DNA of 33,803 nt from Lachnospiraceae bacterium (GTDB lineage Bacteria; Bacillota; Clostridia; Lachnospirales; Lachnospiraceae): contig JAFRVD010000018.1 in assembly GCA_017441825.1 (NCBI GenBank), positions 1 through 33,803 on the forward strand, in the 5' to 3' direction. Numbering within the stretch: position 1 is the first letter of the stretch; every line of letters begins with the position of its first letter. Positions 6,604 to 31,053 of the stretch are shown here, piece by piece. The translations under genes were made by a program, and so were the position numbers. The notes below the pieces were generated by a model. The model was not told the origin of the DNA. It saw nothing but the letters and a program-made list of their open reading frames with translations, and did not search any database.

Positions 6604-6691
6604 GGAGAGGTATCGAAGAGGTCATAACGAGCTGCACTCGAAATGCAGTAGCCGGGTAACTGGCTCGAGGGTTCGAATCCCTTCCTCTCCG
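6604..6691 (+). tRNA. tRNA-Ser, anticodon CGA
   Basis: An 88-base class II tRNA. The acceptor stem GGAGAGG (6604-6610) pairs with CCTCTCC (6684-6690), with G6691 as discriminator. The anticodon arm CTGCA-CTCGAAA-TGCAG presents CGA, which reads UCG serine codons. The long variable arm (GCCGGGTAACTGGC) is typical of tRNA-Ser. The T arm is AGGG-TTCGAAT-CCCT. The 3' CCA is not encoded. A run of T follows immediately (TCTTTTTT). Confidence 0.96.
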
Positions 6692-7776: not shown

Positions 7777-10700
7777 ATGAAAGATTCAGTATACTATTCG
7801 GCCGGTATCGATATCGGCTCTACAACCGTAAAACTCTGCGTTCTTGATGGCGACGGGAAGCTCCTTTTCGGGGAATACCGCCGTCATCACGCGCATACGC
7901 AGGAAACGCTCGCGGATCTTCTTGCGGCCGCACGGGACCTTCTGGGACCGTGCGCGCTTCACGCGCATATCACTGGGTCGGGCTCTCTGGGGCTCAGCAA
8001 GGCCCTTGGCATCCCCTTCACCCAGGAAGTGGTGGCGGTGGCGGACGCGCTTGCAAAGTACCACCCGGAGACGGACGTGGCCATCGAATTAGGCGGCGAG
8101 GACGCGAAGATCATCTACTTTACGGGCGGCCTTGACGAACGCATGAACGGCGTTTGCGCGGGCGGAACAGGGTCGTTCATCGACCAGATGGCGGCGCTAT
8201 TAAAAACCGACGCGGAAGGCCTGAACGAAGCTGCGAAGGAGTACAGCCAGATCTATACCATCGCCGCGCGGTGCGGCGTGTTCGCAAAGACGGACATCCA
8301 GCCGCTCATCAACGAAGGGGCCTCCAAAGCGGACCTTGCGGCGTCCATTTTCCAGGCGGTGGTGAACCAGACCATTTCCGGACTCGCGTGCGGGAGACCC
8401 ATCCGCGGGACGGTGGCGTTTTTAGGCGGGCCGCTCCACTACCTGTCCGAGCTCAAGGCGGCGTTCATCCGGACGCTCGGGCTGTCTCCTTCGGAGATCG
8501 CGGACCCCGAAAACTCGCATCTCTTCGCGGCAATAGGTGCGGCCATGCAGGCGGGGGCGGAAGCATTTTCCGTGGATTCGCTCATCGAAAAGCTCCGGCA
8601 CGGGGTGCCGATGGAGCTCGAGATCAAGCGGCTCGATCCCTTATTCAGCAGCCGGGAAGAGTATGAAGCGTTCCGTATGCGCCACGGAAAAGCGTCCGTG
8701 CCGCGCGGAGAGCTCTCCGTATACCGTGGGAAGTGCTATCTCGGGATCGACGCAGGCTCGACCACTACCAAGCTGGCTCTTGTGGGCCGGGACGGCGAGC
8801 TTCTCTATTCGACCTACGCGAACAACCAGGGAAGCCCTGTCGAGGTCGCGCGGAAAGCCATGGCGGAGATCCGGGACGCGCTGCCGGAAGGCGCCGTGAT
8901 CGCGCGGGCCTGCTCCACGGGCTACGGCGAGGCGCTCATGAAGGCCGCGTTCCGGCTGGATGAAGGCGAAGTGGAGACTGTGGCGCACACAGCGGCCGCG
9001 GCGTTTTTTGAGCCTATGGTGGACTGCGTGCTGGACATCGGCGGGCAGGACATGAAATATATCAGGATCCGGAACCACACGGTGGATACGGTCATCCTGA
9101 ACGAAGCCTGCAGCTCGGGCTGCGGGTCGTTTATAGAGAATTTTGCGGTCTCGTTAGGGCTTACAGCCCCGGAGTTCGCGCAGGAGGCGCTGTTTGCGGA
9201 GCAGCCCATCGACCTCGGCACACGCTGCACGGTCTTCATGAATTCGAACGTGAAGCAGGCGCAGAAGGAAGGCGCGAAGGTCTCGGATATTTCCGCGGGT
9301 CTTGCGTATTCCGTGATCAAAAACGCGCTGTTCAAGGTCATCAAGCTTGCGGACGCGAAGCAGCTGGGCGCGCGTATTGTGGTGCAGGGCGGTACCTTCT
9401 ATAATGAGGCGGTGCTCCGGGCGTTCGAAAAGGTGGCCGGGACGGAAGTCGTCTGCCCGGACATCTCAGGCATCATGGGGGCGTTCGGCGCGGCGCTCAT
9501 CGCGCGCGAGCGGGACGACGGAAAGGCTTCCCAAATGAGGAGCTTCGACGAGATCGCCGCCCTTACGTATACGTCCCGCGCGGTCCGCTGCGGCGGCTGT
9601 GAAAACAACTGCATGCTGACGGTGAACACGTTTGACGACGGCTCGCGGTTTATATCCGGCAACCGGTGCGAGAAGAAGGTCTCAACGGTGAAAAGCGCCC
9701 GGAAAGGCGTGAACCTCGTCGAATACAAGAGAAAGCGCGTCTTCGGGTACCCGCCGCTTTCGGAAGAAAAGGCGGTGCGGGGGACCATCGGCATCCCGCG
9801 CGTTTTAAACATGTACGAAAACTACCCGTACTGGGCGGTCTTTTTCCGGGAGCTTGGCTTCAAGACGGTGCTTTCCCCGTTCAGTTCGCGGAGCATCTAC
9901 GAATCCGGCATGGAATCCATCCCGTCCGAGTCCGAGTGCTACCCGGCAAAGCTTGCCCACGGCCACGTCCAGTGGCTTTACGAGCACGGGATCACTACCG
10001 TATTCCACCCCTGTGTATTCTACGAATACCAGGAGACGCCGGGCACGGATAACCATTACAACTGCCCGATGGCGGCGTCGTATGCGGAAAATCTCAAAAA
10101 CAACGTGGAAGCGGTCACGTCCGGCAGGATGAAGTACCTCCGGCCGTTCATCGCCTTTACGAACGAAAAGACGGCGGAGGACCGGCTGGTGCGGTTCTGC
10201 CGGAAAGAGTGGAAGATCCCGGCGCAGGAAGTGCGGCGGGCGGCGCGGCTTGCGTGGGCGGAGATGCGGAAGACGAAGGAGGATATCCGGAACGAAGGAG
10301 CGCGCGTGCTTTCCGAAATGGAAGCGGAGGGCCGGCGGGGCATCGTCCTCGCGGGCAGGCCGTACCACATCGACCCGGAGATCAACCACGGCATCCCGGA
10401 GATGATCGCGAGTTACGGGCTTGACGTTTTCACGGAAGACAGCTTGCCGTATACGGACGAAGACAAGGAGCGGCCGCTCCGCGTGGTGGACCAGTGGGTC
10501 TTCCATTCGAGGCTCTATAACGCCGCGCAGTTCATCCGGAAGAGGGATGACCTCGAGATCATACAGCTGTTCTCATTCGGCTGCGGCCTGGACGCAGTGA
10601 CTACGGACCAGGTGCAGGAGATCCTGGAGAAGTCCGGAAAGCTCTATACGGTCATCAAGATCGATGAAGTCGGGAACCTTGGCGCGGCCAGGATCCGTGT

Positions 10701-12015
10701 GCGGAGCCTCATGGCAGCCATGGACATGAGAAAGCGCCGGGAGATCAGGCCGGATCCGAAGCCTGCGGCGTATAAACGGACCGAGTTCACGAAGAAGATG
10801 TACGACGAAGGATATACGATCCTCGCGCCGGCCATGAGTCCCATCCACTTCGACCTTCTGACGCCGGCGTTCCGGAAGCACGGGTACAGGCTCGAGATGC
10901 TGAACAACGCGACGCGCAGGGCGGTGGACTTAGGCCTCCAGTATGTGAACAACGATGCGTGCTATCCGTCCATCATTGTCACGGGACAGATGATGGAGGC
11001 GGTGCTTTCCGGACGGTACGACACGGATAAGCTTGCCCTCCTCATGTCGCAGACCGGCGGCTGCTGCCGGGCGAGCAATTACATCGCCTTCATCCGCCGG
11101 GCGCTTGAAAAGGCGGGGATGTCCCACATCCCGGTCATTTCCCTCAATGCAAACGGCATGGAGAAAAACGAGGGCTTTAAGCTCTCCATACCGCTCGTGC
11201 TCACGGCGTTCCGGGGGCTTCTTTTAGGAGACCTCCTGATGCGGTGCCTGTACCGGACGAGGCCGTATGAGGTCACGCCGGGCTCCGCGAACGCGCTGAA
11301 GGACAAGTGGACGAAGACGATCAGCGAATGCTTCCTTTCGGACGACCCCGAATTGAGCTATAAGGAGCTCTGCAGGGGGATCGTGTCGGAATTTGACGAG
11401 CTGCCGCTTTATGAGGACGTGAAGAAGCCGCGCGTGGGCATCGTCGGGGAGATCCTTGTAAAATACATGCCGCTCGCGAACAACCATCTGGTCGAGCTCC
11501 TTGAAAAGGAGGGGGCGGAAGCCGTGGTGCCGGACATGCTGGACTTCTTTGAGATGTCCGTGTTCGGGAAGGACTATCAGCATAAGTACCTCGGGAAGAA
11601 AGTGCTGGATTCCGTGATCGCGCACGCGGGGGTCGCGGCCATTGAAGGGCTCAGGATCCACGCGGCGGGAGCGCTCAAAAACAGTAAGCGGTTCGCGCCG
11701 CCCAGGCGGATCGACCGCATTGCGGAGCCGGTGAAGCCGTTCCTGTCGCTCGGGAACCAGTACGGCGAAGGGTGGTTTTTATGCGGGGAGATGGTGGAGC
11801 TTCTGGACGAGGGCGTCGATAACATCATCTGCATCCAGCCGTTCGCGTGCCTGCCGAACCATGTGATGGGGAAGGGAGTCATAAAGGCTCTGAAGGCGGC
11901 GTATCCGCAGGCTAATATTGCCGCGGTGGACTACGATCCCGGCGCGAGCGAGGTCAACCAGCTGAACAGGATCAAGCTGATGCTGACGGCGGCTGACAGG
12001 GCGGTCGGGAAGTGA
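7777..12015 (+). CDS. Large 2-hydroxyacyl-CoA dehydratase activase/DUF2229 fusion
   Basis: This 1412-residue protein fuses four parts. An N-terminal BadF/BcrA-type ASKHA ATPase (GIDIGSTTVK at 10-19) has cluster cysteines C127 in GVCAGGTGSF and C166 in RCGVFAKTD, at the same positions as in HgdC. A second ASKHA domain (LGIDAGSTTTK near 322, CSSGCGSFIENFA near 450) follows. A linker has CGGCENNC near 605, then a DUF2229 domain starts near 669 (IGIPRVLNMYENYPYW). The C-terminal HgdB-like part includes QTGGCCRASNY near 1092. Such giant proteins are common in Clostridia; they look like an ATP-driven electron activator fused to a dehydratase-like subunit, and their substrate is unknown. No separate dehydratase or CoA-transferase gene is nearby. 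The start is supported by GGAGG shortly before the ATG. Confidence 0.9.
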   Translation: MKDSVYYSAGIDIGSTTVKLCVLDGDGKLLFGEYRRHHAHTQETLADLLAAARDLLGPCALHAHITGSGSLGLSKALGIPFTQEVVAVADALAKYHPETDVAIELGGEDAKIIYFTGGLDERMNGVCAGGTGSFIDQMAALLKTDAEGLNEAAKEYSQIYTIAARCGVFAKTDIQPLINEGASKADLAASIFQAVVNQTISGLACGRPIRGTVAFLGGPLHYLSELKAAFIRTLGLSPSEIADPENSHLFAAIGAAMQAGAEAFSVDSLIEKLRHGVPMELEIKRLDPLFSSREEYEAFRMRHGKASVPRGELSVYRGKCYLGIDAGSTTTKLALVGRDGELLYSTYANNQGSPVEVARKAMAEIRDALPEGAVIARACSTGYGEALMKAAFRLDEGEVETVAHTAAAAFFEPMVDCVLDIGGQDMKYIRIRNHTVDTVILNEACSSGCGSFIENFAVSLGLTAPEFAQEALFAEQPIDLGTRCTVFMNSNVKQAQKEGAKVSDISAGLAYSVIKNALFKVIKLADAKQLGARIVVQGGTFYNEAVLRAFEKVAGTEVVCPDISGIMGAFGAALIARERDDGKASQMRSFDEIAALTYTSRAVRCGGCENNCMLTVNTFDDGSRFISGNRCEKKVSTVKSARKGVNLVEYKRKRVFGYPPLSEEKAVRGTIGIPRVLNMYENYPYWAVFFRELGFKTVLSPFSSRSIYESGMESIPSESECYPAKLAHGHVQWLYEHGITTVFHPCVFYEYQETPGTDNHYNCPMAASYAENLKNNVEAVTSGRMKYLRPFIAFTNEKTAEDRLVRFCRKEWKIPAQEVRRAARLAWAEMRKTKEDIRNEGARVLSEMEAEGRRGIVLAGRPYHIDPEINHGIPEMIASYGLDVFTEDSLPYTDEDKERPLRVVDQWVFHSRLYNAAQFIRKRDDLEIIQLFSFGCGLDAVTTDQVQEILEKSGKLYTVIKIDEVGNLGAARIRVRSLMAAMDMRKRREIRPDPKPAAYKRTEFTKKMYDEGYTILAPAMSPIHFDLLTPAFRKHGYRLEMLNNATRRAVDLGLQYVNNDACYPSIIVTGQMMEAVLSGRYDTDKLALLMSQTGGCCRASNYIAFIRRALEKAGMSHIPVISLNANGMEKNEGFKLSIPLVLTAFRGLLLGDLLMRCLYRTRPYEVTPGSANALKDKWTKTISECFLSDDPELSYKELCRGIVSEFDELPLYEDVKKPRVGIVGEILVKYMPLANNHLVELLEKEGAEAVVPDMLDFFEMSVFGKDYQHKYLGKKVLDSVIAHAGVAAIEGLRIHAAGALKNSKRFAPPRRIDRIAEPVKPFLSLGNQYGEGWFLCGEMVELLDEGVDNIICIQPFACLPNHVMGKGVIKALKAAYPQANIAAVDYDPGASEVNQLNRIKLMLTAADRAVGK

Positions 12016-22269: not shown

Positions 22270-23190
22270 TTGGAAAAAACCGGTAATCAGCGAGATGAAT
22301 CACGGCTGACCCGGAGAAGGAAATTCAAGGAAAACTACGGCGGCTACGCGTATATTGCGCCGTGGCTCATCGGGTTCCTCCTTCTTTCGGCCTGGCCGAT
22401 GATCTACTCATTCTACCTGTCGTTCACAAATTACAACATGTTCGGTTCACCCCAGTGGATCGGCACCAAAAACTACAAACAGATTTTTACGACTGACCTG
22501 AACTTCAAGAAGTCTCTCATGACTACCTTCAAGTTCGTCCTGATCGCGGTTCCCGCAAAGCTTGTTTTCGCCCTGTTCATTGCAAACCTTCTTAGCAAGG
22601 ACGTCAAGGGCATGAGCTTCTGGAGAACGATGGTATACCTGCCGTCGCTCATCGGCGGATCCGTAGCAGTCTCCATGGTATGGAAGAACATCTTCGGCCT
22701 GGACGGCTACGTCAACTCGATCATCGCATGGTTAGGCGGAGAGAAAGTGCCGTGGCTCGTCAGCACGAAGCTTGCGCTTCCCACCCTGATGCTGATGAAC
22801 GTCTGGCAGTTCGGCTCCAGTATGATCATCTTCCTGGCCGGCCTGAAGCAGATACCGAAGTCACTGTATGAATCGGCAAAGGTCGACGGGGCAGGCCCTG
22901 TCAGCTGCTTCTTCCACATTACAGTGCCCATGCTTTCGCCTGTGGTATTCTTCAACCTGGTCAACAGTATGATCACCGCGTTCCAGCAGTTCAATTCCGC
23001 TTATCTGGTCTCCAGCGGCGGTCCTGCGCATTCCACTTATCTGTACGCCCTGATGCTCTATGAAAAGGCCTTCAAGTCTTATCAGATGGGCTACGCTTCG
23101 GCGCTGGCGTGGATCCTTCTCGTGATCATCGCCGTCTTTACGGGAGTCAACTTCCTCGTGTCGAAGTACTGGGTCCATTACGATGATTAA
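22270..23190 (+). CDS. CUT1 sugar ABC transporter permease (MalF/UgpA-like)
   Basis: This 306-residue permease has six predicted helices. The N-terminus has the AYIAPWLIGFLLLSAWPMIY segment typical of UgpA/MsmF-type proteins; the EAA loop is SLYESAKVDGAG followed by FFHITVPMLSP (around residues 198-222). Translation starts at TTG 22270, 8 bases after AAAGGAGAT; a nearby ATG at 22263 is in another frame. It is the first gene of a three-gene operon whose order (permease, permease, binding protein) differs from the more usual binding protein first. Confidence 0.9.
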   Translation: MEKTGNQRDESRLTRRRKFKENYGGYAYIAPWLIGFLLLSAWPMIYSFYLSFTNYNMFGSPQWIGTKNYKQIFTTDLNFKKSLMTTFKFVLIAVPAKLVFALFIANLLSKDVKGMSFWRTMVYLPSLIGGSVAVSMVWKNIFGLDGYVNSIIAWLGGEKVPWLVSTKLALPTLMLMNVWQFGSSMIIFLAGLKQIPKSLYESAKVDGAGPVSCFFHITVPMLSPVVFFNLVNSMITAFQQFNSAYLVSSGGPAHSTYLYALMLYEKAFKSYQMGYASALAWILLVIIAVFTGVNFLVSKYWVHYDD

Positions 23191-23205
23191 GGGGGTGGAT
23201 AGAAG

Positions 23206-24039
23206 ATGAAAAAAGCTACAGTACGTAAGATCCTTACCCATGTCCTGCTGATCTTCATGTCCTCCCTGATGGTCTACCCCATTCTCTGGTGGTTCTTCGC
23301 GACGTTCAAATACACGAACGCCCTGTCGGACAAGGCTCTGTGGCCCAAGGAATGGACGCTCTACAACTACAGAGAGGGCTGGCATATCACCAGCGACTTA
23401 AGCTTCACAACATTTTACAAGAATTCACTGTTCATCTGCGTGATGAACGTGGTCGGCTCGATCATAAGCGCCGGGCTGGTAGCATACGGGTTTGGCCGCC
23501 TGAAATTCAAAGGCCGCAACGTCTGGTTCGCCATCGTACTGGTAACCATGATGCTTCCAAGTCAGGTCACAGTTATTTCTCAGTATATCTTCTACAATAA
23601 GCTGGGCCTGATCGACACCTACGTTCCGTTTATCCTGCCTCACTTCCTGGGCGGCGGCGCGTTCTTCATCTTCCTTCTGGTACAGTTCGTAAGAGGCGTG
23701 CCGAGAGAGCTGGATGAAGCGGCCAAGATCGACGGAGCCAACACATGGATGATCTATTGGAGGATCCTGTTCCCGCTGATGAAGCCGTCGTTCGTGACGG
23801 TCGGTATTTATTCCTTTATCTGGAGCTGGGATGATTTCTATTCCCAGATGCTTTACATCAACTCCCCAGAGAAATTTACCGTCAGCTTAGGCCTCCGGAT
23901 GTTCATCGACCAGGCGGACGTCAAGTGGGGGCCCCTTCTCGCGATGTCCATGCTTTCGATCGTTCCTTCGCTTCTGATCTTCTTCTTCAACCAGAAGGAG
24001 TTCGTAGAAGGCGTTGCGACGACCGGCCTGAAGGGATGA
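23206..24039 (+). CDS. CUT1 sugar ABC transporter permease (MalG/UgpE-like)
   Basis: This 277-residue permease has six helices and an EAA loop ELDEAAKIDGANTWMIYWRI-LFPLMKPS (around residues 166-192). The C-terminal FVEGVATTGLKG ending is typical of MalG/UgpE proteins. It follows the MalF-like gene after 15 bp with GGGGTGG as ribosome binding site. It should pair with that permease. Confidence 0.92.
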   Translation: MKKATVRKILTHVLLIFMSSLMVYPILWWFFATFKYTNALSDKALWPKEWTLYNYREGWHITSDLSFTTFYKNSLFICVMNVVGSIISAGLVAYGFGRLKFKGRNVWFAIVLVTMMLPSQVTVISQYIFYNKLGLIDTYVPFILPHFLGGGAFFIFLLVQFVRGVPRELDEAAKIDGANTWMIYWRILFPLMKPSFVTVGIYSFIWSWDDFYSQMLYINSPEKFTVSLGLRMFIDQADVKWGPLLAMSMLSIVPSLLIFFFNQKEFVEGVATTGLKG

Positions 24040-24077
24040 CGCAACTGTAGTTTCCACACAAGGAGGGTAAACATTTT

Positions 24078-25466
24078 ATGAAGAGAGTACTTGCGTTATT
24101 ACTCGCTGCGATGCTTCTCGTTTTCGCAGTCGGCTGCCAGAGCGGCGGCTCCACAACGCCGGATGCAAAGCCCGAAGAGTCCGAAAAGGAAGCGGAGCCC
24201 GCAGAAGAGCAGGAAGCAGAGCCTGAAGCTCCCGCAGATGAGGGCGAAGGCAGCGGCAATCCGGACGCTCCGGCCATGAAGTTCATGTGGTGGGGCAATG
24301 ATTCCCGTCACGAGGCGACCAAGAAGATGGTCGACCTCTACAATGAGACCTTCGGCGCGAATATTTCCTACGAGTTCATGGCGTGGGACGGCTTCTGGGA
24401 TAAGCTCCCCGTTCTGTCTGCATCGAACTCCATGCCCGACATCCTTCAGATGGACTCCGCTTTCATCCACACCTATGTGAATAACGGTGCCCTCATGGAT
24501 ATTACGGACAAGCTGGACCTGACCGACATCATGACACAGGAGCAGATCGATATCTATAAGATCGACGGCGTTCTGTACGGCGCGCCGGTCGGCACGAACG
24601 GCATGGGCTGCACGTATCTGAAGCCGGTTCTTGATGAATACGGCATCGATTATCCGTGGGCAGGCTGGACCTGGGACGAGTTCATCACCTGGGCGAAGGA
24701 CGCTGCTGAGAAGCTTCCCGACGGCATGTGGATCCAGGGCGATCCCCGTGCTTCCGGATATGAGAACCTTCAGAACTACGTAGAAGCAAACTACGGCTAC
24801 AAGATCCTCGGATTTGACGGTTCCTTCAACTTCAACAAGGAACACTTCATCGAGTACTTCACCCTGTGGCAGGAGCTTGCGGATGCAGGCGTTGTTCCTC
24901 CGGCAGAAGTATCCATGTCCTTCACGGACGGCGATGCGACCTCCGACGGCTGGATCAACAAGAAGGTCCTTCTCCGGTTCTCCAACATCGGCAACGTAGA
25001 TATGGAGGTTGCGCTTCTTCCTGATGAAGAGCAGACCACTGTAGGCGTTGCAAGCGCACCCGTTGGCGAGAACGGCGGCGGCTGGTATCAGTCCACCATG
25101 TTCTACTGCGTAGGCGCGAACTGCGAGCATCCGGACGAAGCAGTTGAGTTCATCAAGTGGATCGTTTCCGACATCGAAGCCGGCAAGATCCTTCAGACCG
25201 TACGCGGTATGCCCGTCAGCGAAGCTGTTTACGACGCGATCAAAGACGACATGACCGTTGGCCAGCGGCTTGCGAAGAGCCTTCAGGATGCAGTTGCTCC
25301 GTACGCTACCCCGTACTGGAACAACACCCCGAACGACTACGCTGACTGGGTCAATGAATTCAAGGCCTACGGCGAGTCCATCATGTTAGGTGAAATGGGC
25401 ATCGAAGAGGCTGCGGATCATCTGTATGAAGCCGGTATGGCGATCTACGAGTCTCTGAACAACTGA
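24078..25466 (+). CDS. CUT1 extracellular sugar-binding lipoprotein
   Basis: This 462-residue family 1 solute-binding protein has lipobox FAVGC (C20) and a long acidic linker rich in Glu, Pro and Ala (about residues 25-62). The mature fold opens with MKFMWWGNDSRHEATKKMVD, the usual first strand and helix of UgpB/MalE-like proteins, and contains YGAPVGTNGMGCTYLKPV and WTWDEFITWAKDAAEKLP. AAGGAGG lies upstream of the ATG. It ends the second importer operon; a hairpin follows. No ATPase is encoded in this operon, so a shared MsmX-type ATPase is expected elsewhere. Confidence 0.93.
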   Translation: MKRVLALLLAAMLLVFAVGCQSGGSTTPDAKPEESEKEAEPAEEQEAEPEAPADEGEGSGNPDAPAMKFMWWGNDSRHEATKKMVDLYNETFGANISYEFMAWDGFWDKLPVLSASNSMPDILQMDSAFIHTYVNNGALMDITDKLDLTDIMTQEQIDIYKIDGVLYGAPVGTNGMGCTYLKPVLDEYGIDYPWAGWTWDEFITWAKDAAEKLPDGMWIQGDPRASGYENLQNYVEANYGYKILGFDGSFNFNKEHFIEYFTLWQELADAGVVPPAEVSMSFTDGDATSDGWINKKVLLRFSNIGNVDMEVALLPDEEQTTVGVASAPVGENGGGWYQSTMFYCVGANCEHPDEAVEFIKWIVSDIEAGKILQTVRGMPVSEAVYDAIKDDMTVGQRLAKSLQDAVAPYATPYWNNTPNDYADWVNEFKAYGESIMLGEMGIEEAADHLYEAGMAIYESLNN

Positions 25467-27544: not shown

Positions 27545-28234
27545 ATGGCAAAAAAGAAAACAACGAAAAAGGCGGCGGGCGGACCGGGAAAGACACAGCT
27601 CGCGCTGTCGCTCATACTGAACGTCCTGATCTTCGCGTTTACAGCGTATTCGGTGTTCCTGTGCTTTTACAACGCGGATTCCGGACAGCTCACGGCAGAC
27701 GGGCTCAAGGCCTTCCGCTACTTCACTGTGGATTCGAACATCGTCTGCGCGCTGGCGGCGCTTGCCGTCGTTATTGCGGACGTCAGGCTCCTTTCAGGGA
27801 ACGGCGGACAGCTGCCCAAATGGGTGCTCCTTTTCAAGTTTGTCGGGACGGTAGGCGTTACGCTTACGATGCTGACCTGTATCCTCTATCTTTCAAAGAT
27901 GACGGGCGGCTTCGGAAACCTGATCCGCGGGAAGGAGCTGTTCATGCACCTTCTGACGCCGGTCCTCGCGATCGTCTCTTATGTGCTTTTTGAACACGGA
28001 GCACCGCTGAAGCTCTGGACCATTTTCCTGCCGTGCGTGCCTATTGCCGCGTATGGGGCCGTGTATTTCTACATGGTGCTTTCGGTACCCAAGGACCGCG
28101 GCGGCTGGAATGATTTCTACGCGCTCGCGCGGAACAGGAACTGGGTCGTTCCCGTACTCGTTATGGCGGCAGCCATTGTCCTGATCAGTCTTGTTCTGTG
28201 GGGACTGAACCGGATGTTCCGGCCCAGAAAGTGA
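27545..28234 (+). CDS. Pr6Pr/FAR-17a-like integral membrane protein
   Basis: This 229-residue protein starts with a lysine-rich tail and has six predicted helices. FRYFTVDSNIVCALAAL, the WVLLFKFVGTVGVTLTML helix, FMHLLTPVLAIVSYVLFE and GGWNDFYAL are typical of Pr6Pr family proteins, and it is the closest relative in the window of the protein at 4809-5747. It lacks that protein's C-terminal extension. The start at 27545 is preferred because GGGAGGG lies upstream; the frame is open earlier only across the hairpin. A small basic protein gene follows after 8 bp. Confidence 0.8.
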   Translation: MAKKKTTKKAAGGPGKTQLALSLILNVLIFAFTAYSVFLCFYNADSGQLTADGLKAFRYFTVDSNIVCALAALAVVIADVRLLSGNGGQLPKWVLLFKFVGTVGVTLTMLTCILYLSKMTGGFGNLIRGKELFMHLLTPVLAIVSYVLFEHGAPLKLWTIFLPCVPIAAYGAVYFYMVLSVPKDRGGWNDFYALARNRNWVVPVLVMAAAIVLISLVLWGLNRMFRPRK

Positions 28235-28242
28235 GGGTTTTG

Positions 28243-28521
28243 ATGAGACGTAAGAAACCGAGCAAAAAAGAACAAAAACGGCTCAATAAGATCAATAAAC
28301 TGATTGAACTGAATAAAGAAAAAACAGCAAAAGAGCGCCACAACAACTCCCGGATCGTGAAGCTTTCACGGAACGTACGGCGGGTGAAGCGCGGCGCTAA
28401 GGTCTTTAAATTTGTAAAGGAGAAGGTCGTGCCGGTCCTGCTCATCGCCTTTGCGGCGGTGGCCTATAAGGTCTTCGGCGTCGAGATCCCCAAGGAGAAG
28501 AAGCGGAAGGGTAAGAAATGA
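28243..28521 (+). CDS. Small basic protein with one membrane segment
   Basis: This 92-residue protein is extremely rich in Lys and Arg. A probable coiled-coil helix (about residues 5-35) is followed by a basic stretch and a single hydrophobic segment VVPVLLIAFAAVAYKVFGV (about 62-80), then a Lys-rich end. I do not recognise a family. GAGGG lies 5 bases before the ATG, and the gene begins 8 bp after the Pr6Pr-like gene, suggesting co-expression. The basic cytosolic part could bind nucleic acid or acidic phospholipid; that is only inference. Its stop is 4 bp from the convergent coaX stop. Confidence 0.7.
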   Translation: MRRKKPSKKEQKRLNKINKLIELNKEKTAKERHNNSRIVKLSRNVRRVKRGAKVFKFVKEKVVPVLLIAFAAVAYKVFGVEIPKEKKRKGKK

Positions 28522-28525
28522 TCCC

Positions 28526-29308
28526 TTACCTGTTTCGGAGACAGATGCTCCATAAGCCTTTCATGAGAAGGCCCGGGTCCCATGTGACGGTGTGCGTAAG
28601 GAACGGCGTGATGAACGGGCTGCAGCCTCCGGTCGCGAAGATCCGGCAGGGGACTCCGGCCTCCCGCTCCATTTCCGTGATGATCCGGTCCAGCATGCCC
28701 GCAGTCCCGTAGATGATGCCGCTCCGCATGGCGTCCACCGTATTCGTGCCGATGGCGCGCTCCGGCGCGTCCAGCCCGATGTCCGGGAGCGCCGACGTAG
28801 TTTCGGAAAGCGAATTTAAGGACGTCCGGACGCCGGAGCAGATGGTCACTCCCCGGAGGGCCCTGGGCCCCCCGCGGTATCCGTCCACCATGGAGATGAC
28901 GGTCGCGGTGCCCATGTCGATATCGATGACAGGCCCATCGGCAGTGAGGAGCGCGCCGGCCGCATCGCACAGGATGTCCGTGCCGACCTCGTACGGGTCG
29001 TAGGTGTCTATGGTAAAGTCCAGGTCAAGCCCGGCGTTCACCCGGATCACGGAAAGGTCGAGAAGCTGCGAAAGCGCTTCCGTGAGCTGCCCCGTGACCT
29101 GCGGCACCACGCTCGAAAGCGCGCAGGCCGTGATGGCTGTATCTTCTATGTGGTGAAGCTTCAGGATGGTCCGGATGGTGACCGCGTATTCCACGGCTGT
29201 CCGGGTGCGGTCCGTGTGGATCCTTTCGAGGAACAGAGGCTCCGGATGGGTCTCTTCATGGATCGAGAAGCAGATGTTGCTGTTGCCTGCGTCAACGGTC
29301 AGGATCAT
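28526..29308 (-). CDS. coaX: Type III pantothenate kinase homologue, copy 1
   Basis: This 260-residue ASKHA-fold enzyme should phosphorylate pantothenate, the first step of coenzyme A synthesis. The ATP-phosphate motif DAGNSN (6-11), the catalytic-Asp motif as GTD (109-111), DMGTAT (131-136), YRGG (144-147), the IGTNTVDAMRSGIIYG segment (186-201) and ATGG (225-228) are kept. The normally conserved loop xxPG after YRGG reads ICSG (156-159) and contains a small insertion, so part of the pantothenate site is altered. The start overlaps the stop of copy 2 by 4 bp, which implies coupled translation of both copies and possibly a mixed dimer. No terminator is apparent before the convergent gene. Confidence 0.88.
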   Translation of the reverse strand: MILTVDAGNSNICFSIHEETHPEPLFLERIHTDRTRTAVEYAVTIRTILKLHHIEDTAITACALSSVVPQVTGQLTEALSQLLDLSVIRVNAGLDLDFTIDTYDPYEVGTDILCDAAGALLTADGPVIDIDMGTATVISMVDGYRGGPRALRGVTICSGVRTSLNSLSETTSALPDIGLDAPERAIGTNTVDAMRSGIIYGTAGMLDRIITEMEREAGVPCRIFATGGCSPFITPFLTHTVTWDPGLLMKGLWSICLRNR

Positions 29309-30081
29309 CGGCGGCCTCCTTTCTCGTGATAATAAAGGCGGGAGAGGCCTTTTAAGGCCAGAAATTCGTCTTCGATGACCTCATGGGTGAGATATGGAAG
29401 GATGCGCTTTGCGTGCCTCCCGGTCGCGACGTGGGTCGTCTTCATGCCGAGCTCGTCCTCGCAGAGGTCGATGATCCGGTCCGCCATTCCGGCGTTTCCG
29501 AAGGTGAGGCCCCCGGTCAGCGATTCCTGCGAATTTTTGCCGAGCGTCGTGAGGACGGTCCCGGGTGCGGTATTCGGGATCTGAGAGGTGTTTCCGAGAA
29601 GCGCATTGAGTGCGCTGTGCACGCCGGGCAGGATCACGCCTCCCCGGTACGCGCCTTCCGGCCCGATCACGCCTAACGTGGTGGCTGTGCCGAAATCGAT
29701 GAAAATGAGCGGAGGAGGCGCAAGGAGAAGCGCGCCTGCGGCGTCCGCGAGGAGATTGGCGCCCAGGTTCTCCGGCTGGTCGATCCAGATGGGCACGAGG
29801 TCCTGCCGGTCCGCCCGAACGACGTATGGGGCTGACCCGAACACGCGCCGGACCGATGCGGAAATGACGGACGTGAGCGCCGGAACGACGCTCGAAAGGA
29901 CGCAGCCCTCGACCTCCGAGATCTCCGTCTTCCGGACTGCAAAGGTCTGGAGAAGGTCTACGGCGTATTCGAGGTCCGTCTTCTTAAGGTTCGTACTGAT
30001 CCGCTCCAGGAAGATCTCCCGGTCCCGGTCCATGCAGCCGATGCTGATATAACTGTTTGTGACGTCGAGTGTTGCGATCAT
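29305..30081 (-). CDS. Type III pantothenate kinase homologue, copy 2 (degenerate ATP site)
   Basis: This 258-residue CoaX paralogue is divergent from copy 1. It keeps DFGTATT (129-135) and the canonical YRGGVILPG (145-153). However, the first phosphate motif reads DVTNSY (6-11; the glycine and second asparagine are lost), the catalytic GAD motif reads GAN (107-109), and the TGG near the C-terminus reads TGR (220-222). These are the residues copy 1 retains. It may be an inactive partner, a regulatory subunit or one half of a heterodimer. AAAGGAG precedes the ATG, and a promoter lies 30 bp upstream. It is first in the two-gene operon. Confidence 0.85.
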   Translation of the reverse strand: MIATLDVTNSYISIGCMDRDREIFLERISTNLKKTDLEYAVDLLQTFAVRKTEISEVEGCVLSSVVPALTSVISASVRRVFGSAPYVVRADRQDLVPIWIDQPENLGANLLADAAGALLLAPPPLIFIDFGTATTLGVIGPEGAYRGGVILPGVHSALNALLGNTSQIPNTAPGTVLTTLGKNSQESLTGGLTFGNAGMADRIIDLCEDELGMKTTHVATGRHAKRILPYLTHEVIEDEFLALKGLSRLYYHEKGGRR

Positions 30082-30109
30082 GCGGCGCTCCTTTCAAAGA
30101 TTAAGGTTA

Positions 30110-30138
30110 ATTATACTGATTGAAGGAGAGATTGACAA
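30110..30138 (-). promoter_or_regulatory. Promoter of the coaX pair
   Basis: On the minus strand TTGTCA (30133-30138) and TATAAT (30110-30115) have a 17-base spacer. Transcription would start near 30103, about 22 bases before the ATG of copy 2. The remaining 70 bp to the next plus-strand gene contains an imperfect inverted repeat (30139-30167) but no clear plus-strand promoter. Confidence 0.8.
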
Positions 30139-30210
30139 GGCTTTTCTCCCGGAGTGCAGGAGAAGCCTGTATATTTTCAGAAGAAGCAAAGTCGGTAAGG
30201 AGGTCGTGCT

Positions 30211-31053
30211 TTGGAAAAGATGGAAAAGAATGATTATACGGATCCCGCGTGCCCGTTCGATTTTTCACAGTACACCGGGGGGCCGAAGGAATCGGTGCCT
30301 GTAAGAAGGGTCCTTGAAAAGGAGGACGGCCTTCTGGCCGTCAATGACTACGAAGGGGCGGAGCGCCATCTCCGGTACTGGATACAGGAGGCGGAGGCGC
30401 TTCACGACAGCCGCGGCAGGTTCACTCTGATGAACGAGCTCATGGGCGTCCTCCGGAAGTCCGGAAAGAAGGACGAGGCGATCCGGGCGGCTTACGATAC
30501 GATGGAGCTCGCGAAAGAACCGGACGTGATGGGCGACCCGGTGGGCGTTGCCACGTGCTTTATCAACGCGGGGACGGTGCTGACGTTTGCGGAAAAGCCG
30601 AAGGACGCCGTGCCGCTCTTTGAGATGGCCTGCGGGATCTATGAAAAGGTGCTTCCCGAGGACGATTCGCGGCTTGGCGGCCTTTACAACAACATGGCGC
30701 TGTCACGGACGGACATCGGCGAATACAACGGCGCGATGCGGGACTTCCAGAAGGCACTTTCTGTAATGGGAAAGCAGGAGCAGGGCGAACGGGAGCAGGC
30801 TGTTACGTGGCTGAACATCGCGGATCTTTATGAGCTCCGCGACGGAAACGTGGGTGCGGATGAGATCGACCGGTGTGTGTCCGAAGCGGAAATGTGCCTG
30901 GAGTCGAAAAAGCTTCTGCACGACGCGGACTACGCCTTTGTTCTTGAGAAATGCGCGCCTGTGTTCGACTACTACGGCCATTTCTACTATGCGGAAGTGT
31001 GCCGTACGAGAGCCGCCGCGATCCGCGCGGAATACGCGAAGAAGGACTCTTGA
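30211..31053 (+). CDS. Tetratricopeptide repeat protein
   Basis: This 280-residue soluble protein is made mostly of helix pairs. TPR-type repeats can be seen at about 35-60, 63-90, 100-140 and 145-200, for example NYNEG-like DYEGAERHLRYWI, AGTVLTFAEKPKDAVPLFEMACGIYEK and NNMALSRTDIGEYNGAMRDFQKAL. Such proteins are protein-interaction scaffolds. TTG is used as start, 7 bases after AAGGAGG; an ATG three codons later is too far from it. The gene ends 1 bp before the DUF4037-protein start, so the pair is coupled and probably works together. Confidence 0.85.
   Translation: MEKMEKNDYTDPACPFDFSQYTGGPKESVPVRRVLEKEDGLLAVNDYEGAERHLRYWIQEAEALHDSRGRFTLMNELMGVLRKSGKKDEAIRAAYDTMELAKEPDVMGDPVGVATCFINAGTVLTFAEKPKDAVPLFEMACGIYEKVLPEDDSRLGGLYNNMALSRTDIGEYNGAMRDFQKALSVMGKQEQGEREQAVTWLNIADLYELRDGNVGADEIDRCVSEAEMCLESKKLLHDADYAFVLEKCAPVFDYYGHFYYAEVCRTRAAAIRAEYAKKDS

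Follow-up and report, generated by a model that had tools for sequence, protein, structure and literature searches.

Tandem coaX paralogues in Lachnospiraceae as a candidate heteromeric type III pantothenate kinase

The accessible part of PMC8366970 describes pantothenate kinase (PanK) structures of each of the three types as homodimeric, and presents the characterised PanKs as homodimers until the type II heteromer of apicomplexans. The PanK1/PanK2 complexes of that group are there called the first heteromeric PanKs in nature. A first-pass annotation of the DNA studied here had invoked this type II precedent, correctly according to the same source, and knew of no counterpart of type III (CoaX). 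Among the papers listed by full-text searches of PMC, a body with subscription papers mostly outside it, no title or abstract opening reports a heteromeric type III PanK or a tandem coaX pair. We describe one such pair in a 33,803-nucleotide stretch of Lachnospiraceae DNA (the window), an entire contig (G000:C80) from an 82% complete assembly. Its two genes may well form a bicistronic unit for a heteromeric kinase of the CoaX fold, with the first product as a selected pseudokinase subunit; judging from sequence comparison, we give this reading an even chance.

Two overlapping coaX genes and their products

Both genes are encoded on the minus strand. PU, which comes first in the unit, occupies 29305..30081 and encodes a degenerate CoaX-family protein of 258 aa, and PD, the second, occupies 28526..29308 and encodes a CoaX-family protein of 260 aa with complete catalytic columns; each assignment draws on the ORF, PF03309, motifs and AlphaFold2. 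The start of PD lies over the stop of PU in an ATGA overlap (29305..29308, minus strand). Both frames are open, full-length CoaX-family genes, and their PF03309 scores of 150.9 bits (PD) and 144.7 bits (PU) stand against a cut-off of 24.7, in agreement with the original description of two CoaX-type genes overlapping by ATGA, in which PU was called copy 2 and PD copy 1. Chance or sequencing error as the source of the pair was rejected, as both frames are open and the pair of another genome, G010, is 75 and 77% identical.

Direct reading of the minus strand places Shine-Dalgarno-like motifs 5′ of each gene, AAAGGAG for PU (30088..30094) and AAGGAGG for PD (29315..29321). Upstream of PU is a sigma-70-like promoter match at 11/12 positions (30110..30138, minus strand); because this sole match in 28200-30400 compares with 0.7 expected, it is weak evidence for a promoter. 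The flanking genes are on the opposite strand, with no evident CoA role seen: one side has genes for a TPR protein and a DUF4037 protein, the other has two genes whose products lack a Pfam match. Elsewhere in the window, all on the plus strand, are a tRNA gene (6604-6691), nothing else in the window reaching an Rfam gathering score; a gene for a CoA-enzyme-activase-like protein of 1412 residues with BcrAD_BadFG and DUF2229 domains (7777-12015); and an ABC transporter with a solute-binding protein and two inner-membrane components, after which come genes for a GNAT acetyltransferase and a DUF624 protein (22270-25466).

Among solved structures, the top sequence matches of PU and of PD are CoaX, and the crystal structures nearest to their AlphaFold2 models (mean pLDDT 90.4 for PU and 94.3 for PD) are CoaX as well. 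PD combines the PF03309 match, the CoaX fold and the catalytic columns of a type III pantothenate kinase. PU has the family match and the fold, but lacks the catalytic Asp of GxD and the glycine of TGG.

Motif asymmetry and conservation in the genus set

Motif reading covered 188 distinct CoaX frames and then an enlarged set. The catalytic columns of CoaX are DxGN, GxD, DxGTA and TGG. In the window, PD reads DAGNSN, GTD, DMGTATV, ICSG and ATGG, and PU reads DVTNSY, GAN, DFGTATT, GGVILPG and ATGR, with DVTN where DxGN is usual and ATGR where ATGG is usual; motif alignment confirms the earlier readings for both copies. Their generality was examined in a genus set of 15 genomes, the window's own included; those of its members that appear in the named collection are assemblies of uncultured Lachnospiraceae or Clostridiales. 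PU has lost the GxD Asp in 9/9 cases, whereas PD keeps it in 11/11; the final Gly of ATGG is gone from 8/8 readable PU and kept in 11/11 PD, the PU of G002 being left out of the latter count because an N run makes the position unreadable. Given these losses, PU is not classed as an active CoaX. The phosphate-loop Gly, also listed at first among the losses of copy 2, is in fact variable (4 G, 3 A and 2 T across the 9 PU). Similarly, the ICSG loop of altered length ascribed to copy 1 is present in the window, but its Ser and 4-residue insert occur there alone among the 11 PD, with P at the xPG position in 6/11 and A in 4/11.

Over 12 catalytic columns, tandem PD (n = 9) are intact in 108/108 cells and PU in 66/96. 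Tandem PD are also the most diverged group at other conserved columns (250/351 cells), and it is the intactness of the 12 columns despite divergence elsewhere that makes PD the catalytic candidate. Its departures outside these columns are the xPG proline, the last residue of DxGTATT (V in 11/11) and the GPGxKTGL segment, which is lost in PU as well. Since the catalytic core of PD is complete, the losses are not truly complementary, and the first-pass annotation was too strong on this point. All four core residues are kept in 117/117 comparison CoaX, a set that consists of the best-scoring loci of two family samples and the best 80 of 90 loci from a PU-query scan and, being drawn from best-scoring loci, favours intact copies. 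The Fisher p of 4.5e-10 for the asymmetry ignores relatedness and includes 2 lone PD among its 18 second genes, and is given no weight here. Loss of the GADR Arg was rejected as a sign of decay, as this Arg is found in only 39/143 non-tandem CoaX.

The PU-PD tandem pair is present in 9/15 genus-set genomes, with its order and its overlap or near overlap kept: among the 8 pairs whose coordinates can be read, 7 have ATGA and one has TGATG. Genomic surroundings of the pair are partly common to the genus genomes. PU form one clade in the tree and PD another; derivation of PU and PD from one local duplication is not supported, there being no join between them in either tree. PD occurs alone in 2/15 genomes (L098 in G005 and L099 in G008), with Ser in place of the DxGTAT Asp; CoaBC is present in each of these genomes, and so is a further CoaX that looks intact.

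Further CoaX genes lie elsewhere in 9/15 genus-set genomes, 5 of them with the pair, and look intact in 8/9. The exception is the further CoaX (L011) of G006, which reads GN and TGH and has therefore lost the GxD Asp and the ATGG Gly; in this genome (85% complete), which also has the PU-PD pair, a CoaX with both residues was not found outside the pair. Only the pair was seen in G000, the genome of the window, and in G002, G007 and G010 (73-84% complete for the four), where absence of a further CoaX may reflect incompleteness; in G001 and G014 (54-59% complete) neither pair, lone PD nor further CoaX was seen. The possibility of another pantothenate kinase in the same genome, raised at the outset, is thus borne out, as a further CoaX, in many relatives, and such a gene was not seen in the incomplete assembly of the window. 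Because so many genus-set genomes carry a further CoaX, the pair of the window may represent an additional or altered isozyme, which we consider about as likely as its being the main pantothenate kinase.

PU is under purifying selection. Its frame is full-length in 8/9 genomes, the ninth (G002) being broken by the N run, and pairwise dN/dS (NG86) is 0.10-0.25 for PU (5 comparisons), 0.10-0.15 for PD (5) and 0.08-0.20 for further CoaX (2), at dS values of 0.86-1.63, which are near saturation. PU is not pseudogene-like at such ratios, and the relaxed selection on copy 2 that had been named as telling against the heteromer was not seen. We accordingly find it very improbable that PU is a functionless duplicate drifting to a pseudogene. 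Drift would account for its several lost motifs, its absence from G005 and G008, where PD stands alone, and a dN/dS a little above that of PD in most comparisons, but sits poorly with the full-length frames and low ratios, with two losses that are the same across the genus, with a confident AlphaFold2 fold model, and with the same one-sided loss in the other tandem pairs described below. The C-terminal helix, presumably the dimer interface in CoaX, is not specially preserved in PU (31/40 conserved cells vs 243/314 at other conserved columns).

Recurrence of one-sided loss in other tandem pairs

Outside the genus, at least 8 tandem coaX loci are present among the matches listed, including those of Cuneatibacter sp. 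NSJ-177, C. caecimuris, Ca. Pseudolachnospira avium and 5 others; one scan behind these loci ran with PU as the query, and its counts refer to the best 80 of 90 loci. In their first genes (T1), the ATGG Gly is lost in 8/8 and the GxD Asp in 2/8. Their second genes (T2) keep the GxD Asp in 8/8 and the ATGG Gly in 7/7 readable cases, one T2 being truncated where its contig stops; the catalytic columns of T2 are intact in 84/84 cells. Taking all readable tandem pairs within and outside the genus, the ATGG Gly is lost in 16/16 first genes and kept in 16/16 second genes. The pair therefore extends well beyond the window, and a paralogous gene pair, as would be expected of a heteromeric PanK, is encoded and kept together both in the genus and at these other loci. 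Natural fusion was rejected: 7 stretches chosen for long frames (L265-L269, L274, L275) each have one CoaX domain.

In a tree made without the motif columns, two of three non-genus sets group as local duplications of their own (SH-aLRT 92 and 98), the placement of the third is not settled by the tree, and the ATGG state requires at least 11 changes. These trees, which came from quick searches with 39 of the 117 comparison rows, suggest that tandem pairs arose by at least two separate duplications.

The 8 non-genus tandem genomes yielded no other CoaX, bar a fragment in the genome that has L124; it spans the piece that the cut second gene of L124 lacks, and fits a gene split by the contig end. 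In the Cuneatibacter genomes, the pair is the only CoaX found. Type I PanK was not found above cut-off in the 3 non-genus tandem genomes examined. coaBC adjoins 7/8 non-genus pairs, on the same strand and after the pair in 3 (L157, L159 and L168); the pair of G297 sits close to the start of its contig, with coaBC on a different one. Proximity of coaBC to CoaX is usual (51 of the best 80 of 90 loci). Outside the genus, the tandem pair is probably the cell's pantothenate kinase.

Tandem pairs are rare, with 3 among 394 sampled non-genus family genomes (G260, G297 and G323). Two-copy genomes were chosen from family samples at E 1e-3 and E 1e-40, and for genomes only in the E 1e-40 sample weaker second copies would be missed. 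Of the 42 non-genus family genomes with two CoaX matches, 3 are tandem, 3 have a fragment or a sub-cut-off second match, and 36 have dispersed copies. Exactly one copy lacks the ATGG Gly in 10 of these 36, and in none is it lost from both. Every loss of this Gly seen here is thus accompanied by an intact copy; such losses mark all readable tandem pairs and roughly one in four dispersed pairs. Two dispersed CoaX, L229 (G216) and L230 (G274), are without the first-motif Asp, the DxGTAT Asp and the ATGG Gly, with coaBC on the same contig stretch and the other CoaX of each genome intact; these may be pseudokinases that are not part of a tandem pair.

Repeated one-sided loss in tandem pairs, including those in which the pair is the only CoaX found and stands with coaBC, is the strongest support for a heteromer, and favours it. 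That one gene is catalytic and the other a degenerate but selected partner is well supported, and to this extent the proposal of a catalytic and a supporting subunit stands. The obligate heterodimer of the first-pass annotation does not follow, because the catalytic columns of PD are complete; as those of T2 are complete too, a homodimer of the second-gene product could work alone. Weighing against a heteromer of either kind are the two genomes that keep PD without PU, the further CoaX in the genus set, the unremarkable conservation of the C-terminal helix of PU, the restriction of one-sided loss to a minority of dispersed pairs, and the rarity of tandem pairs.

PD (or T2) might instead be a conventional CoaX-type kinase that works as a homodimer, with PU (or T1) a separate regulatory pseudoenzyme rather than a kinase subunit. 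The complete catalytic columns of the second genes agree with this, as does the CoaX of Mycobacterium tuberculosis, which the accessible part of PMC7770189 reports as inactive, yet for which, going by PDB titles, homohexamer and Dop-complex structures have been solved. We rate this arrangement as rather unlikely, since an overlapping order kept in the genus and in other tandem pairs is a better fit to subunits than to unlinked roles, and the same residue is lost each time in the first gene. In the heteromeric kinase that we prefer, PD is predicted to carry the working ATP and catalytic site. PU would keep the fold as a selected pseudokinase without the catalytic Asp and ATGG glycine, and would form the other half of the dimer, in a stabilising or allosteric role or by completing a substrate pocket across the interface. 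We infer a physical complex, kinase activity, and pantothenate as the substrate.

CoA pathway, substrate and known systems

CoaBC is present in 3/15 genus-set genomes (G005, G008 and G009), there beside a further CoaX, and was not found in the 9 pair-bearing genomes, most of these assemblies being incomplete; a CoaB domain search agrees, and 14/14 controls were matched in each search. CoaD has a match in 15/15 genomes, above cut-off in 14, and in 8/9 of those bearing the pair, with a weak match only in G010. No type I PanK was found above cut-off in the 15 genomes, with weak sub-cut-off matches in 7; a type II search of 16 genomes gave no match, and its controls gave none either.

A pantetheine shunt, ascribed to a side activity of pantothenate kinases, is proposed for genomes without CoaBC in the accessible part of PMC6593275. 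The pair could on this precedent be a CoaX-derived kinase of another substrate, with pantetheine as the best guess, in a lineage without CoaBC; the missing CoaBC, the retained CoaD, the lack of a type I PanK match above cut-off and the GPGxKTGL segment gone from PU and PD would all be in keeping with it. However, CoaB is missing in 10/25 single-CoaX family genomes and present in 33/35 dispersed two-copy genomes examined, so that the pair and CoaBC loss may co-occur by plain descent. Moreover, 5 pair-bearing genomes also have a further CoaX, the genomes concerned are mostly incomplete assemblies, and CoaX is described as not accepting pantetheine in the accessible parts of PMC11487621 and PMC12570885. 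We regard another substrate as improbable, and pantetheine in that role as speculative. CoaX without a CoaB domain was found in G017, G018, G026, G029, G031, G036, G038, G061, G086 and G087, most of them 98-100% complete.

The two ideas can be combined in a two-subunit CoaX-derived kinase, one subunit active and one a pseudokinase, that phosphorylates pantetheine and closes the CoA pathway without CoaBC. This we hold to be slightly more doubtful still; if true, it would be the first heteromer among enzymes of the type III fold, and at the same time a kinase dedicated to the shunt. If the heteromeric kinase with a pseudo-subunit is correct, repeated type III origins with the first gene degenerate each time would amount to a natural experiment in the passage from homodimer to heteromer, and annotation of each gene as a pantothenate kinase would be misleading.

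Compared with CoaX itself (PF03309; B. anthracis 2h3g, T. maritima 3bf3), the locus shares family and fold, and PD has all 12 tested catalytic columns; it differs in having two overlapping paralogues, one of them, PU, without the catalytic Asp and the ATGG Gly. M. tuberculosis CoaX (9b78, 9cku) resembles PU as a CoaX described as inactive and still retained (PMC7770189, accessible part), but is not part of a tandem coaX pair, and the PDB title gives a structure with Dop. The pantetheine shunt of CoaBC-less bacteria has a likeness in the genus set, where CoaBC was not found in 12/15 genomes and CoaX and CoaD are represented; the shunt is ascribed to PanK side activity in what is accessible of PMC6593275, whereas its tie to this pair is a guess. 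The apicomplexan PanK1/PanK2 complex is likewise built of two paralogues that keep and lack different active-site residues and are proposed to make one complete site (PMC8366970, accessible part). It differs in being type II and eukaryotic, in losses described as complementary where here the PD columns are complete, and in a complex that is demonstrated there and proposed here.
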